Assembly: GCA_903917615.1 (NCBI GenBank)
Contig: CAIXBH010000059.1
Location: forward strand, 1 to 45,813
Length of the DNA stretch: 45,813 nucleotides
Source of the DNA: an uncultured Chloroflexota bacterium
GTDB taxonomy: Bacteria; Chloroflexota; Dehalococcoidia; UBA2979
Direction: 5' to 3'
Shown piece after piece: positions 72 to 7,194 of this stretch. A program made the position numbers and the translations under genes. Numbering within the stretch: the first letter of the stretch is position 1; every line of letters starts with the position of its first letter. Under the pieces are notes generated by a model. That model did no database searches. It worked only from the letters and a program-made list of their open reading frames with translations, and was not told the DNA's origin.

Positions 72-3000
72 ATGGTTGCAGACTCGTCGGCAGACATTAG
101 GCGCTACGTCGCTGCACGTCTGAAACAGTTCGCCACCGAGTTGCTCGACCTGTCTGGTCGAAGTCGCCTGCTGAACTACCGCGAGTCATGGACCGACCGC
201 ATCGGCCCCGTCGGCTTCAGTTCCTCTTTGACGATTGACGCGGTCTTTCGATACCTCGACGACGGACGCCGCCTTGAATTCCCCGTATCGGACACAGCCG
301 CACCGACGCTGGTGAATCCCATCTCGTCGAGCCGAGTGCTGCTAGGCGTGCCCCAGATGCCTCCAGCGCAACTGCGGCGAGCACTGAAAAAACTCAGCGA
401 TGCCTACAACGAAGGCCAACGGGAGAAGGGGACGAATCACGTCTTCGCTATGTTCGGCTTCCTCGAATACGTCGCTGGAACTGTCGGCACCGATGGCATC
501 GAAGGCGATCGACGGCTCGCGCCTGTTGTACTGGTCCCTCTAGAGGTGCAGCGGGTCAGTCGCAGCGGCACTTGGCAGTACTCGTTTGTCAGTGCCGGCC
601 CAGCGGAAGTCAATCCGGCTCTCGCGGTGCTGCTAAGCACCAACTTCAACTTGGACATCCCGGCCCTAGAGGAGGGCATCCAGAACTCGACGACCGGCCT
701 ACAACTCTCAACCTACTTCCGCGCTGTTGAGCGACAGATCATCTCCAGGAAGCCGACTTGGCGGCTCCTTCCCAATCTGGCGGTCGCCGCTCTTCCGGCA
801 AGAGGCCGGATGGTCATCTACGAGGACTTGAGTCAGGGATGCTCACCGAACGACGACGACGCGATCTGGATGGCAAATCCTTGGGTCGCGAACGAGCGAG
901 TAACCAAGCTACTGGCCGGCTCCACGGATTCCGCTGACACGCTGCAAAGCGCCGACATACATCCGGTCGATTCACCAGCGCTACGCGGCGAGATCCCCGT
1001 CTTACCGCTACCGGCAGACTCGACACAGTTGTCGGCGGTTATCGATGCGCTCCGAGATCGCGACTTGGTGATTAAGGGGCCACCCGGTACCGGCAAGAGC
1101 CAGACGATTGCGAACCTCATCGCGGCGTTGCTTCAAAGACAGAAGTCAGTTCTGTTTCTCGCCGACAAGGCGGCAGCACTGGAGGTCGTACAAAAGCGGC
1201 TCGATGATGTTGGTCTAGGCCCGTTCTGCCTGCAGATTCATTCTCAGCAAGCCACACGGACAGAAGTCCTTCGGCAAGTGCGTTCGCACCTCGCGGCTGT
1301 CCGTAATAGGACTGCTCGGCCAGCCGAGTCGCTTGAAGAAGCCCGCACCCTGTATTTCGACATGCTCGACGATCTCAACCGACGAGTCGCGCTCCTGGGT
1401 GCGCGACTTGGAGAGACGCGCTACTCGATTCATTCCGCCCTGGCTGAGTTAGACGCGGTTCCCGGCTCTCGGACTTCACCGAGCGAGATGTTGTCGCTCG
1501 CCTGGGTCACGAAACGGATCACCGACCGTGACATCCAGGAGTACGTCGCACTGTGCCGCCGAATCGAGTTGCTACGCGAGACGCTGGCGCAGGACTTTGG
1601 GGTTGGCGCCGACCACCCATGGCTTCAACTCCATGACGATCAGCTCGATAACCCGGACTCGATACCGACGATCTTGGACGCACTCCGAGGCTACCGCGAC
1701 GCGACCGCACGGCTTGCCCAAGCAAGCTCGATCTTGATGGCCGAGCCAACGATCGCTGACGTGAACACGATTTCTGACTCGCTGCTCGCTAGCGTTGCTG
1801 AGCTGGGGCACCCGTCCCCTAGTGAACTCCGACCGAAAGCAATCGCCCTTCTCCAAGAAAGCGCGAAACGCCAGACTTACCGATCGGTGCTCGACCTGTC
1901 CGATCAGTTGGATGGACTCACGGAACGTATTCGGGCTCTCGCTTCCTCGCCCCCCGACCCGACGCAAGTCCTCGCCGCCAAAGACCTTCTAGAGTCGAGG
2001 AAACTTCTGGGATCCTCCCAATCGGTCTTGGCGTGGGACACGGATCTTGCAGAGGCTTGTAACCGACACAATCGACTGGTCGGGGCGACAGGTGCGTTGA
2101 CTGCGCTCACGACCCGGCTCGCCTTACCCCCGTTGCGCTCCCGCGACGACGTTCTCGCATTCAGCGAATGCCTCGACCTCGCCCAACAGCTTCGGATGCT
2201 ACTTCACGTGCGCCGCCAATCACTCGCATCACCTGATGCACTGGAGTCAGTCAAACGACTCGGTCAACGCGCGGCTGAGTTACGAGCTGCTAGCACCGAG
2301 CAGGCGCGCGAGTTCGTCGTTGTATCCGCTCAAACCAGCTCAGACGAAGTGCTCCGAGCTGCGACGAGTCTCAGGACCGCCGGGATGTTCTCGTTCCTCA
2401 GCAAAGAGGATCGGGCTGCGCGACGCCTCTACAAGACGCTCCACCGCAGGGATGCTCCCGCTTCGGTACCGGCCGCTGACGCCCTACAGACCTTCGGCCT
2501 GCACCTCCGAGACATCGAAGCATTTCGCGGATCGAACGAAGCATCTTCTCTGTTGGGGGATCTCTTTGATGGCGTCGAAACGGACTTCGCACCGATCCTC
2601 ACTTGCGCCGAGGTCCTAGACGCTGCCACCCGGCTTCGACGGCACGGAGAACTAGGTTCCACGTTGGCCCGCGTTCTCACGCACGGCACGAATGAAGAAG
2701 CCGCGTCGCTTGCCGATCTGCCTAGCCCTGAGGAATCCGAAGCGATCGGAGTGCTGCTATCAGAACTTTCATCGGCAGAGCCTGACATCACGGCGCTCGT
2801 CGTTGCGAAATCTTCCTGGATTCAGTCCGCGACCGAAGTACTGGAAGCCCTACGTTCCACGCATCTACGCGAGGACATTCCATTCGGTCCGGCGGTGACC
2901 GAGTTGTTCCAGGTGCTCGGGCAACGCGCAGAGAACCGCGAGGCCAGCGCGCGCTTCGCATCGGCACTGGCTGAGCTGACCGAGGCCGGGTATGACGTGT

Positions 3001-5372
3001 CGGGGCAGGGCGACCGGGTTACCCTCAGCCAGGATTTGGATCTGTTTGATTCATTGGAGACCGTTGCTTCGTATTGCGAAGTGCCTCCGCTGTTCGATGG
3101 GGGGGCCGTCAGTGCCTTCCTCGCGAGGACTCACAGCAACATCTCTGAGTTGGCAGCCGCGGTTGCTGGCCTGCGCCGCCAGCGTATCCACGTCGACGCG
3201 CTCTTCGGTTCGACTCCAATTCCTCGCCTTCAAGACAACCAAAGTCCTCAATCTGTCGTCGAAAGTTGCGATGAGCTTGTTGGCCAGCACGCTTCGCTCG
3301 CGGTCGCTCTGCAGTTCCTTGGCGCTGTCAGGGATGGTAGGCGGCTAGGCCTGCTTGATGGCGCCCCTAGTGGCGCCGTATTCGATTCGACCTTCTTTCA
3401 AGATGCCCACCGACGACTGTTGGTGACCCTTCTGCGGCTCGTCTTCCCGAACTTTCGAGCGATCGCGGAGGTCTCGCGAACGGAGATGGAGTCGCTGCGG
3501 GAGCGATTCGCGGATGCAGGAACACGTCTACGCAGACTGTCATCTGCGGCGGCGAACTCCGAACTTCGCGGCCGTCCGCACGTTAGCGGGGTTTCGCGGG
3601 GCAAGAGGTCCGATTGGACCGAGTGGAGTCTACTGGAGCACCAAGCATCACTGACGCGCCCGTCATTGCCCCTTCGCTCTCTACTTGAGCGCTCGGCACA
3701 TGCGCTCAAGTCCAACATGCCGTGCTGGATGATGTCGCCAAGCTCTGTCGCTCAGTTCGTGTCGCCGACGCAACGCTTCGATGTTGTGATCATCGACGAG
3801 GCGAGCCAGATGCGTCCGGAGGAGGCCGTCACGTCGATCGGGAGAGCCGAACGGTTCGTAATCGTCGGAGACGAACAACAGCTTCCTCCAACGTCATTCT
3901 TCGAGGCAGATCCCTTCGGCAACATCCCCGATGAGGAGCAAACTGAATCGATCCTGGAACTCGCCGCGGCCGTGGCACGGCCAGTTCGGGAACTGCTCTT
4001 CCACTACCGCTCGCGTCACGAAGATTTGATTCGATTCTCGAATACGAACTTCTATGACGATCGGCTTCAGATCTTCCCGTCTGCCGAGCGTGTTCTGGAG
4101 GGAGTCCCTCTCGGCGTTATCCATCATTTCGTCGGCGGCACTTATCAAGGCTCGGGCCTCAACGAAGAAGAGGCTCAGGTGGTTGCGAAAGCCGCCCTGG
4201 AGCACATGCGAACCCGCGCCGACTGGTCGCTAGGGATTGCCGCAGTCAACCAGGCCCAAGCCGATGCGATCTCTAACCTGTTGGATCAATTGGTTGTGCG
4301 GGATCCCGTAGCGCAGCGATTCTTGGCTCGCTGGGACTCGACGACGGAGCCGTTCTTCGTCAAGAACCTCGAATCGGTCCAAGGTGATGAGCGCGACGTC
4401 ATTATGATCAGCACCGTCTATGGGAAGCAGCAGGGTCAGACACGAGTTCAGCAAACCTTCGGCCCGATCAACTCCTTGAATGGACATCGTCGGCTGAATG
4501 TCCTAATCACTCGCGCGAAGTACCGGTGCGAGGTCTTCACCTCAATGCAGTCCTCGGACATCACGCCCGGACCTACGACACATCGAGGAGTCACAGTGCT
4601 CCGCGACTACCTTGCGTATGCCGCCACGGGCCATCTGTCGCGGATGATTGCGCCGACCGACGCACCAACCGGCGATTTCGACAGCCCATTTGAGGAAGCG
4701 GTCGCCGCGGCGCTTGGCGATGCCGGCTGGAAGGTGCACACACAGGTCGGCGTGAACGGATTCCGAGTCGATCTCGCAGTCGTCGATCCCGAGAATCCCG
4801 ATCGGTACATCACGGGAATCGAGTGCGACGGAGCGACCTATCACTCCTCCGCCTCTGCTCGTGACCGAGATCTGTTGCGGCAGGAAATCCTCGAAAGCAA
4901 AGGCTGGCGGCTGTATCGAATCTGGTCCGCTGATTGGTTTGCTGACCGGGAAGCCGAGCTCTCCCGCGTCCTGAGGTTCCTGGATGACCTCGTGGTCAAA
5001 CAGGACGACGGCTTCGTAGTGCCGGAGGTCGTCGGACCTGCACATGCTCATGCCGCGCCGAGCTTGCCAGCGGCAATTGAATCGTCAACGGAGGTTGCGC
5101 AAGCGCAGTGGACTCAGACTGAGACTGCCGTTGCAGATTCGGCATCGTCCACCGACGGCGACGAACGAGCTGAGGAAATCCGTCGGCTCATCCGATGGAC
5201 GGTTCCGGAGCGCGGGAGGATTTCATGGCTGGCTCTTCAAGAGTCGGTTGCCAAGGCACTTACCGAACATCTCACCGATGAACTTCGGATCGAGATCGAC
5301 CGCGAGGTGGCTGCCCTCGTTGCAGCGAAGGAAATTGCAACGGACTGGCATGACTTCTGGCGACGCGACTGA
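72..5372 (+). CDS. Large DUF4011-type SF1 helicase with C-terminal MTES_1575-like PD-(D/E)XK nuclease domain (probable defence-associated helicase-nuclease)
   Basis: 1766-aa ORF; N-terminal LLDLSGRSRLLNYR (DUF4011-like); Walker A GPPGTGKSQTIANLI; Walker B VIIDEASQM; motif VI-like NVLITRAKYR; nuclease-like FRVDLAVVDPENPDRYITGIECDGATYH; C-terminal DUF3320-like tail. Confidence 0.9.
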   Translation: MVADSSADIRRYVAARLKQFATELLDLSGRSRLLNYRESWTDRIGPVGFSSSLTIDAVFRYLDDGRRLEFPVSDTAAPTLVNPISSSRVLLGVPQMPPAQLRRALKKLSDAYNEGQREKGTNHVFAMFGFLEYVAGTVGTDGIEGDRRLAPVVLVPLEVQRVSRSGTWQYSFVSAGPAEVNPALAVLLSTNFNLDIPALEEGIQNSTTGLQLSTYFRAVERQIISRKPTWRLLPNLAVAALPARGRMVIYEDLSQGCSPNDDDAIWMANPWVANERVTKLLAGSTDSADTLQSADIHPVDSPALRGEIPVLPLPADSTQLSAVIDALRDRDLVIKGPPGTGKSQTIANLIAALLQRQKSVLFLADKAAALEVVQKRLDDVGLGPFCLQIHSQQATRTEVLRQVRSHLAAVRNRTARPAESLEEARTLYFDMLDDLNRRVALLGARLGETRYSIHSALAELDAVPGSRTSPSEMLSLAWVTKRITDRDIQEYVALCRRIELLRETLAQDFGVGADHPWLQLHDDQLDNPDSIPTILDALRGYRDATARLAQASSILMAEPTIADVNTISDSLLASVAELGHPSPSELRPKAIALLQESAKRQTYRSVLDLSDQLDGLTERIRALASSPPDPTQVLAAKDLLESRKLLGSSQSVLAWDTDLAEACNRHNRLVGATGALTALTTRLALPPLRSRDDVLAFSECLDLAQQLRMLLHVRRQSLASPDALESVKRLGQRAAELRAASTEQAREFVVVSAQTSSDEVLRAATSLRTAGMFSFLSKEDRAARRLYKTLHRRDAPASVPAADALQTFGLHLRDIEAFRGSNEASSLLGDLFDGVETDFAPILTCAEVLDAATRLRRHGELGSTLARVLTHGTNEEAASLADLPSPEESEAIGVLLSELSSAEPDITALVVAKSSWIQSATEVLEALRSTHLREDIPFGPAVTELFQVLGQRAENREASARFASALAELTEAGYDVSGQGDRVTLSQDLDLFDSLETVASYCEVPPLFDGGAVSAFLARTHSNISELAAAVAGLRRQRIHVDALFGSTPIPRLQDNQSPQSVVESCDELVGQHASLAVALQFLGAVRDGRRLGLLDGAPSGAVFDSTFFQDAHRRLLVTLLRLVFPNFRAIAEVSRTEMESLRERFADAGTRLRRLSSAAANSELRGRPHVSGVSRGKRSDWTEWSLLEHQASLTRPSLPLRSLLERSAHALKSNMPCWMMSPSSVAQFVSPTQRFDVVIIDEASQMRPEEAVTSIGRAERFVIVGDEQQLPPTSFFEADPFGNIPDEEQTESILELAAAVARPVRELLFHYRSRHEDLIRFSNTNFYDDRLQIFPSAERVLEGVPLGVIHHFVGGTYQGSGLNEEEAQVVAKAALEHMRTRADWSLGIAAVNQAQADAISNLLDQLVVRDPVAQRFLARWDSTTEPFFVKNLESVQGDERDVIMISTVYGKQQGQTRVQQTFGPINSLNGHRRLNVLITRAKYRCEVFTSMQSSDITPGPTTHRGVTVLRDYLAYAATGHLSRMIAPTDAPTGDFDSPFEEAVAAALGDAGWKVHTQVGVNGFRVDLAVVDPENPDRYITGIECDGATYHSSASARDRDLLRQEILESKGWRLYRIWSADWFADREAELSRVLRFLDDLVVKQDDGFVVPEVVGPAHAHAAPSLPAAIESSTEVAQAQWTQTETAVADSASSTDGDERAEEIRRLIRWTVPERGRISWLALQESVAKALTEHLTDELRIEIDREVAALVAAKEIATDWHDFWRRD

Positions 5373-5401: not shown

Positions 5402-5587
5402 GTGCAGCATCAGATTAGGTTCTCGATCGAGAAGGAAACGAAGAACACTGTCCGATACCAGGAGGAGTCAGGCGGGAAGCCCCCGGTCATTGGAACTCTT
5501 TATGTGCAGAAGTGGGCCTTGGGAGTAGACGTGCCCTCAGTTCTCTCATTGACCATCAGTACCGACCCCCCTCCGCCCGATCAATGA
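5402..5587 (+). CDS. Small 61-aa protein of unknown function, GTG start, downstream of the helicase
   Basis: Strong Shine-Dalgarno AAAGGAGG at 5389-5396 ahead of GTG at 5402; protein VQHQIRFSIEKETKNTVRYQEESGGKPPVIGTLYVQKWALG... has ordered, non-low-complexity composition. Confidence 0.75.
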   Translation: MQHQIRFSIEKETKNTVRYQEESGGKPPVIGTLYVQKWALGVDVPSVLSLTISTDPPPPDQ

Positions 5588-6819
5588 CTCAACCGGTCCA
5601 TCTGTGCCTCGTATGCCGGCAACAGCGTTGGGGGCAATCCGTCAATCTCCTCAGCAGCCTTTCGCACTGCTTCGGGTAATCGCCCAAGCAGGTCGCTCAC
5701 AATCTCAACTGCGCGCGAACCAGATAGCCCCCACGCCGTCGCCTCGGCCACGAGACGATCTGACGTGACACGATCAATGCGTTGAACAGAATCGACGTAC
5801 ATCGACATGTGCTCCGTCACCCCTTCCGCCTTGTACGCGAGCGTCGACATCAAGTCGTACAGAGGCGCAAGCCGCAAGCTCAGGTCTTGAAGGTGGAGCA
5901 GAGAGAAGTTCTTCCCATGTGCATCCGCGTTGCCGAGCGCGACGTTGAAGGTGACGGCCCTCAGTAGTGCTTCGAGTGACGACCGCTCCGTCGCGCTCAT
6001 GAGCACAGCTGCGACCTTCCGGAGAGATGGACCGCCGTCTTCCTGGTACTTGTTCTTTGGCAGAATCCCGAGCGCCTGACACAGGTCTTCTTGGTGCACG
6101 CGAGTCACGATCCTCTGTGCATCGACCGTTCGGTCGAATCGTTCAATAACGATCAGCTTGCGGCCTTCGACCTGAATGACCTCGACCTCTGCCACGGGAA
6201 GCCCTGCGTACTTCGCGACGCGCATGCAGAAGGCTTCGTTCTCGACGGTGTTGCGGTACGTGGCGTGAGGGGGCTTCAGGATGTGCGTTGACGGCGTGTT
6301 GTCCACGGGCCGCCCCCAGGAGCCATCTGGCATCTTCGTCAGAAGCAGCTTGTCCTGGATGCCGGCGAGAGAAAGTCTCACACGGCCACTGACGCCGAGG
6401 GGCCGCGAACGAAGCCCTCGAACAAGTTCATCGAGCTCGGTGTCGGACAGCGGTGTAGCGGTGGACGTTGTTGCCTGTGCCGGGGGCGATGATTCGTCCG
6501 GGAGCACGATGAGCGCCCCGGCACAGTCACGGCCGAGTTCACGCAGCAAACCGAAGGTGTCATTCGCGACGAGGTCGAACTCGGCGGCGATCGTGGCGCG
6601 CGTCTCCCCTTCCGGGAGTAGGCCATCCAAGAACGCCCGCGTGCGCGCATTTGGGTATGGCTGGTCGACCACCGGCAGATTCAGCGACAGCAGCGGCGTT
6701 CCCAGGCCGAACTGGGTACGAGCATCATCGGTGTACTGGAGACGAAGACGACCGTTGCTGCCCTGCTCGATGCGAGCCACGAGGGTTCCGTAGAGCCAGA
6801 TTGAAAGGCCCCCGGCCAT
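5581..6819 (-). CDS. hipA: HipA family serine/threonine kinase toxin
   Basis: 412 aa; FLDGLLPEGETR, SLAGIQDKLLL, GNADAHGKNFSLL catalytic motif, APLYDLMST; overlaps hipB by 1 nt. Confidence 0.95.
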   Translation of the reverse strand: MAGGLSIWLYGTLVARIEQGSNGRLRLQYTDDARTQFGLGTPLLSLNLPVVDQPYPNARTRAFLDGLLPEGETRATIAAEFDLVANDTFGLLRELGRDCAGALIVLPDESSPPAQATTSTATPLSDTELDELVRGLRSRPLGVSGRVRLSLAGIQDKLLLTKMPDGSWGRPVDNTPSTHILKPPHATYRNTVENEAFCMRVAKYAGLPVAEVEVIQVEGRKLIVIERFDRTVDAQRIVTRVHQEDLCQALGILPKNKYQEDGGPSLRKVAAVLMSATERSSLEALLRAVTFNVALGNADAHGKNFSLLHLQDLSLRLAPLYDLMSTLAYKAEGVTEHMSMYVDSVQRIDRVTSDRLVAEATAWGLSGSRAVEIVSDLLGRLPEAVRKAAEEIDGLPPTLLPAYEAQMDRLSH

Positions 6820-7052
6820 TACCAGTCCGCCTCTTGCAGCGACATTCGGACGCCCAACTCCCGGAGGATGCGGAAGAGCCGCCTCATGTGCTCGGTCTCT
6901 CGGCCCTGCTCGATCTCCGACAGGTAGCTCCGGTGAAGCCCGACTCTCTCCGCGAGCTCTGCCTGTGTCAGGCCGGCCCGCGCCCGGTAGTGCTTGATTG
7001 CCGCTCCCAGCGAGTCCGCTGAGTAGATGCGGAACAGAGGCTCTTCGCCCAT
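6819..7052 (-). CDS. hipB: HipB-like XRE/HTH antitoxin
   Basis: 77 aa; HTH GLTQAELAERVGLHRSYLSEIEQGRE; directly upstream of hipA; AGGAG RBS. Confidence 0.93.
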   Translation of the reverse strand: MGEEPLFRIYSADSLGAAIKHYRARAGLTQAELAERVGLHRSYLSEIEQGRETEHMRRLFRILRELGVRMSLQEADW

Positions 7053-7065
7053 CGGTTGCTCCTAA

Positions 7066-7194
7066 TGTCGTAATTCACCGACATCATAGCAATCTACACC
7101 GATGTCGGCAAATCACGACAACCGATGAGGATGGACATATGTCTTGAAATCAAGACAAGAGTCAAAGACTACTCCTTGTCGGGATATTCAGACA
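7066..7194. promoter_or_regulatory. Array of four HipB-type operators TGTC-N10-GACA at 7066-7083, 7103-7120, 7140-7157, 7177-7194
   Basis: TGTCGTAATTCACCGACA, TGTCGGCAAATCACGACA, TGTCTTGAAATCAAGACA, TGTCGGGATATTCAGACA; starts exactly 37 bp apart; same arm-N8-arm layout as E. coli TATCC-N8-GGATA. Confidence 0.85.
7083..7111 (-). promoter_or_regulatory. Predicted sigma70-type hipBA promoter: -35 TTGCCG (7106-7111), 17-bp spacer, -10 TATGAT (7083-7088)
   Basis: Read on minus strand: TTGCCG-ACATCGGTGTAGATTGC-TATGAT; -35 lies in operator 2 and the expected start site lies in operator 1. Confidence 0.75.

Follow-up and report, generated by a model that had tools for sequence, protein, structure and literature searches.

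Four palindromes of the form TGTC-N10-GACA stand upstream of the hipBA genes of an uncultured Chloroflexota bacterium, each starting exactly 37 bp from the next, which raises the question of what binds them and whether such regular spacing is peculiar to this locus or a more general property of hipBA promoters. The locus lies in a stretch of 45,813 nucleotides, here called the window, which had been described in an earlier note made from its sequence alone.

The hipBA operon and its surroundings

Judged by its sequence, the locus is an intact hipBA type II toxin-antitoxin module and not a hipBST system. The earlier assignment to hipBA is borne out by family assignments, structure matches and kinase residues: the HipA of the window unites HipA_N (Couple_hipA) and HipA_C in one chain (PF07804, E=4e-54; PF13657, E=1e-19), it matches E. 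coli HipA in a PDB comparison (E=2e-40), and the residues corresponding to S150, K181, D309, N314 and D332 of the E. coli kinase are all aligned and conserved. The partner protein belongs to HTH_3 (E=4e-12) and matches HipB structures at about 1e-7, while the NCBIfam HipB models match it below their cut-offs; its C-terminus (...QEADW) carries the terminal Trp that has been described as universally conserved in HipB (PMC3376134). As in E. coli, hipB lies upstream and overlaps hipA by 1 nt, and a split into HipS and HipT, which would mark hipBST, is absent from the locus, where a single full-length HipA is encoded (Table 1).

The operon is adjoined on the plus strand (72-5372) by a gene for a 1766-aa helicase/nuclease with DUF4011, AAA_11/12 and an MTES_1575 nuclease domain, which matches the PADLOC candidate defence family PDC-S37 (E=1e-270) and Hhe (2e-176), so that a defence neighbourhood is possible.

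Table 1. Genes, putative operators and predicted promoter elements of the hipBA locus, in window coordinates.
Feature	Position	Strand	Description and basis
hipB	6819..7052	-	77-aa Xre/Cro-type HTH antitoxin-repressor; recognition helix GLHRSYLS; C-terminal Trp
hipA	5581..6819	-	412-aa HipA-family Ser/Thr kinase toxin; Pfam and PDB comparisons
Shine-Dalgarno AGGAG	7059..7063	-	6 nt before hipB ATG; 2 nt beyond O1; read from sequence
Putative operator O1 (promoter-proximal)	7066..7083	-	TGTCG-TAATTCAC-CGACA on + strand; pattern scan; register to -10 conserved in relatives
Predicted extended -10, TGC-TATGAT	7083..7091	-	Consensus scan; last T is first base of O1
Putative operator O2	7103..7120	-	TGTCG-GCAAATCA-CGACA; holds predicted -35; pattern scan
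Predicted -35 hexamer TTGCCG	7106..7111	-	Inside O2; consensus scan; 0.3 expected by chance
Putative operator O3	7140..7157	-	TGTCT-TGAAATCA-AGACA; 7-bp perfect arms; pattern scan
Putative operator O4 (distal)	7177..7194	-	TGTCG-GGATATTC-AGACA; pattern scan

Four evenly spaced sites upstream of hipB

A pattern scan recovered all four palindromes at the positions first assigned to them, at steps of 37, 37 and 37 bp, and since hipBA is encoded on the minus strand, the site at 7066 is the promoter-proximal O1 and that at 7177 the distal O4. These are the only exact TGTC-N10-GACA matches in the 45.8 kb, where 0.9 would be expected. Single copies are unremarkable, with 32 in the 2.68-Mb assembly as a whole, but when the entire assembly was searched blindly for two copies within 48 bp of each other, the O1-O4 array alone was matched, and a pair of sites 19-60 bp apart occurred in none of 400 simulated windows of equal dinucleotide make-up. 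The 19-bp spacers are unrelated (pairwise identity 16-42%, against 26% expected) and are not copies of one another, so that the equal spacing does not stem from a recent tandem duplication.

With several 5-N8-5 palindromes upstream of hipB, O1-O4 have the make-up of a HipB-type operator array. The 5-N8-5 layout of the E. coli HipB operator, which the earlier note had ascribed to every site, holds for O1 and O2 (TGTCG..CGACA, together a 20-nt inverted repeat) and for O3 (TGTCT..AGACA), all with perfect half-sites, but in O4 (TGTCG..AGACA) the fifth pair is broken. The half-site itself does differ from that of E. coli, as had been claimed, being TGTCG or TGTCT here and TATCC there.

Promoter architecture

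One sigma-70-like promoter was found by consensus scan (TTGCCG-17-TATGAT with an extended TG), and repressor bound at O1 and O2 should keep RNA polymerase away from it. The register between the -10 element and O1 (offset -5) is the same in 26 loci, the window included, and is shared by the -10 of E. coli, where TATAAT/ATCC (TATAATATCC) shows the same arrangement.

In about 26 relatives (for example L045, L040, L042, L026 and L109) the hipB ATG lies inside O1 (TGTCGGATATGnnGACA), about 7-8 nt past the extended -10, and in view of this proximity a leaderless hipBA mRNA is predicted for them; one site would there cover the -10, the transcription start and the start codon. The window, unlike those relatives, has a leader with a Shine-Dalgarno sequence.

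Operator spacing in hipBA relatives

HipA relatives were collected from genomes of the same family and from 80 contigs drawn from a set of one genome per species (85,462 species), with further ones from plasmids and from 251 genomes of the phylum covered by a family search. A first scan for TGTC..GACA gave steps of 26-27 and 37-38 bp, together with 53-54 bp where the middle site is degenerate. A second scan, which assumed the 5-N8-5 layout only and no half-site, returned a wide range of half-sites, namely TGTC[CGTA], TGTGC, TGCAC, [AC]TTGC, TATGC, TGCTT, TGCTA and TATTC. The nearest relative (64% HipA identity) has three degraded sites at steps of 38 and 37 bp, which the automatic scan missed. 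In Syntrophales and other deltaproteobacterial hipBA loci (L055-L084), TATTC-N8-GAATA operators stand at 49-50 bp, a third spacing class.

The steps were evaluated in 67 loci under 75% HipA identity, 34 of which had arrays well above shuffles. Of the 70 adjacent steps in these 34 non-redundant loci, 65 measure 26-28, 37-39 or 49-51 bp, compared with 20% in the shuffles, and the modal step is in one of the classes in 31 loci, counts to be read with the shared ancestry of the loci in mind and with the classes having been named after the discovery data were seen. For the latter reason more weight attaches to the 12 hold-out loci, which came from plasmids of named organisms and from the unbiased family search. 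All 12 fall in the classes, only some of the steps being readable in a few of them; they include Cronobacter (28/27/28), Leisingera and Citrobacter (27 three times each), Legionella adelaidensis (27 twice), Alteromonas (26 three times) and M. avium (28). A clear array was absent from three further plasmid loci, and some distant hipBA loci either lacked an array or had a step outside the classes (46, 52 bp). When about 700 genomes from two phyla were searched blindly for paired sites, every hipBA-linked match had a spacing of 27, 37 or 38 bp.

At 10.5 bp per turn, the classes correspond to 2.5-2.7, 3.5-3.7 and 4.7-4.9 turns, and the step has changed class on the HipA tree at least 7 times, nearly always into another of the classes. 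The phased steps of these loci support helical phasing of hipBA operators. The recurrence of step classes one helical turn apart upholds the claim of the earlier note that spacing matters, and the same half-sites at random spacing, which it had named as the contrary case, were not what the relatives presented. Its description of the spacing as unusually strict has to be dropped, strict even steps being the rule in hipBA arrays and the E. coli array being phased as well.

Comparison with known operator arrays

The operators of E. coli K-12 hipBA, at steps of 28, 39 and 28 bp as computed in this analysis, resemble those of the window in being four 5-N8-5 palindromes upstream of hipB, with a -10 whose last base is also the first of O1; the steps belong to the same helical classes as those of the relatives, and the half-site is one key base away from theirs (TATCC vs TGTCC). 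The window differs in its TGTCG/T half-sites and in its uniform 37/37/37 steps, which lack the 28-bp pair formed by O1 and O2 in E. coli. Even operator spacing has already been reported for the hipBST system of Legionella, which has three operators upstream of hipB with 53-bp gaps; on the other hand, its half-sites are of 6 nt, the spacing is larger and the toxin is split into HipS and HipT in place of a full-length HipA (PMC10653801). Caulobacter hipBA1 and hipBA2 are reported to have three palindromic operator sites per promoter (PMC8545095).

In the searchable literature no general helical rule for hipBA operators was found to be stated, though structural papers may hold an earlier remark; as far as that literature shows, the phasing rule is the new part, operator arrays upstream of hipBA being already known.

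HipB as the probable ligand

It is most likely, on sequence evidence, that O1-O4 are autoregulatory operators of HipB, because the half-site shifts with the HipB recognition helix in relatives. All seven loci with the helix RSYLS have TGTCG half-sites, and these loci sit on three separate branches, whereas RTYLS loci have TGTCC or TGTCT with one exception (TGTGC); other pairs are PRNYVN with TGCAC, YRF(L/M)S with TATTC and, in E. coli, KQATIS with TATCC. The Ser/Thr of the helix tracks the fifth half-site base in a Fisher test, with the same conclusion whether 16 or 17 RT loci are counted, and the HRSYLS helix of the window, with its mostly TGTCG sites, fits the trend.

Proposed mechanism and alternatives

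The reading put forward here, which is considered probable, is that the sites are HipB operators autoregulating hipBA, with steps kept for cooperative contacts between neighbouring HipB2-HipA2 complexes. Each site would take a HipB dimer, normally with two HipA, and the promoter would be blocked once O1, which covers the -10 and the start site, and O2, which covers the -35, are occupied. Steps of n plus about 1/2-3/4 helical turn (37 bp or 3.5 turns at this locus) would let adjacent complexes touch, and these contacts would make binding cooperative, giving a steep, repression-locked array in which HipA would be sequestered too; evolution would then shift the step by a whole turn (27, 37-38 or 50 bp) and not by half a turn.

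Published work on E. coli describes cooperative binding of HipB to all four operators, in which HipA acts as co-repressor (PMC3376134, PMC3920265); the N-terminal subdomain of HipA has also been reported to dimerise on DNA (PMC6581861). The phased arrays suggest that neighbouring HipB2-HipA2 complexes contact each other along the DNA. For the contact itself, positions P86, D88 and D291 of E. coli HipA, which are linked to high persistence or to the interface of the HipA dimer, are T, G and S in the window, while G22 is kept. These positions are not a defining feature of hipBA, but with only part of them conserved, the complexes of the window may touch through a surface other than the E. coli one. 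Further points against the proposed reading are the lack of a 28-bp pair at this locus and the distant loci without an array or with an off-class step.

The earlier note had proposed coating or wrapping of the DNA by HipB or HipBA, and a complex that wraps or polymerises beyond the four operators is an unlikely competitor. The regular phase of as many as four or five successive sites is consistent with it, as is the bending of the operator by about 70 degrees by HipB in E. coli (PMC3920265). However, the arrays are short, with 3-4 sites as a rule, and end about 140 bp upstream of hipB, evidence of spreading was not found, and the steps of relatives differ by a turn, which is not readily reconciled with a single superhelix. 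The array does not establish coating or wrapping, and a cooperative chain without continuous wrapping fits the phased sites equally well.

Less probable again is that promoter geometry sets the spacing, O1 being placed over the -10 and O2 over the -35 with the rest incidental. The fixed register of the -10 on O1 and the position of the -35 inside O2 agree with this view, but the O2-O3 and O3-O4 steps, beyond the promoter, are equal to the first, and the O1-O2 step switches by a whole turn among relatives (27 vs 37) while the -10 stays in place. For these reasons promoter geometry is not the whole cause, and as a sole cause it was rejected; contacts between neighbouring DNA-bound complexes can account for the steps beyond the promoter.

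That an HTH regulator other than HipB binds the array is improbable to a still higher degree: TGTC-N10-GACA is a common palindrome, and the blind matches include an array beside a ParA-like gene and others upstream of a ClpC-like gene, yet in many loci hipB immediately follows the sites, and the half-site and the recognition helix of HipB vary together, even as regards Ser/Thr and the fifth base. Chance or a duplication artefact is next to negligible and was rejected, since, common as single sites are in the assembly, simulations yielded not even one pair in range, the spacers are not copies, and relatives, including the nearest one with its degraded sites, conserve the geometry.

The blind matches outside hipBA that were set aside comprise a parA-linked 38-bp array, in-frame coding repeats and ClpC-like pairs at 27-28 bp. 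The last are paired TGTCAA..TTGACA sites upstream of an apparent ClpC-like gene in four actinobacterial loci (L132, L133, L135, L138), with no hipA nearby, and show this step in connection with an unrelated regulator. Two Chloroflexota loci, L094 and L095, carry long TGTC..GACA palindromes at 38 bp, and those of L095, just upstream of a ParA-like gene, are perhaps a partition site.

Implications for hipBA regulation

HipBA is the classic persistence module, and its mutations to high persistence affect how HipA dimerises in complexes bound to the promoter. It is an evenly balanced proposition that, across bacteria, hipBA operators are set at n plus about 0.5-0.75 turns (27, 38 or 50 bp), with the half-site free to vary and the step shifting almost only by whole turns, and that what is conserved as the functional unit would be a cooperative HipB2-HipA2 chain with an adjustable link between neighbours, not the occupancy of single sites. 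The rule recurs in most hipBA relatives examined, in several phyla, and offers a practical route to HipB operators and to half-site prediction from sequence alone. That it is kept despite changes in DNA specificity, species and step class points to the contact between promoter-bound neighbours as being under selection.
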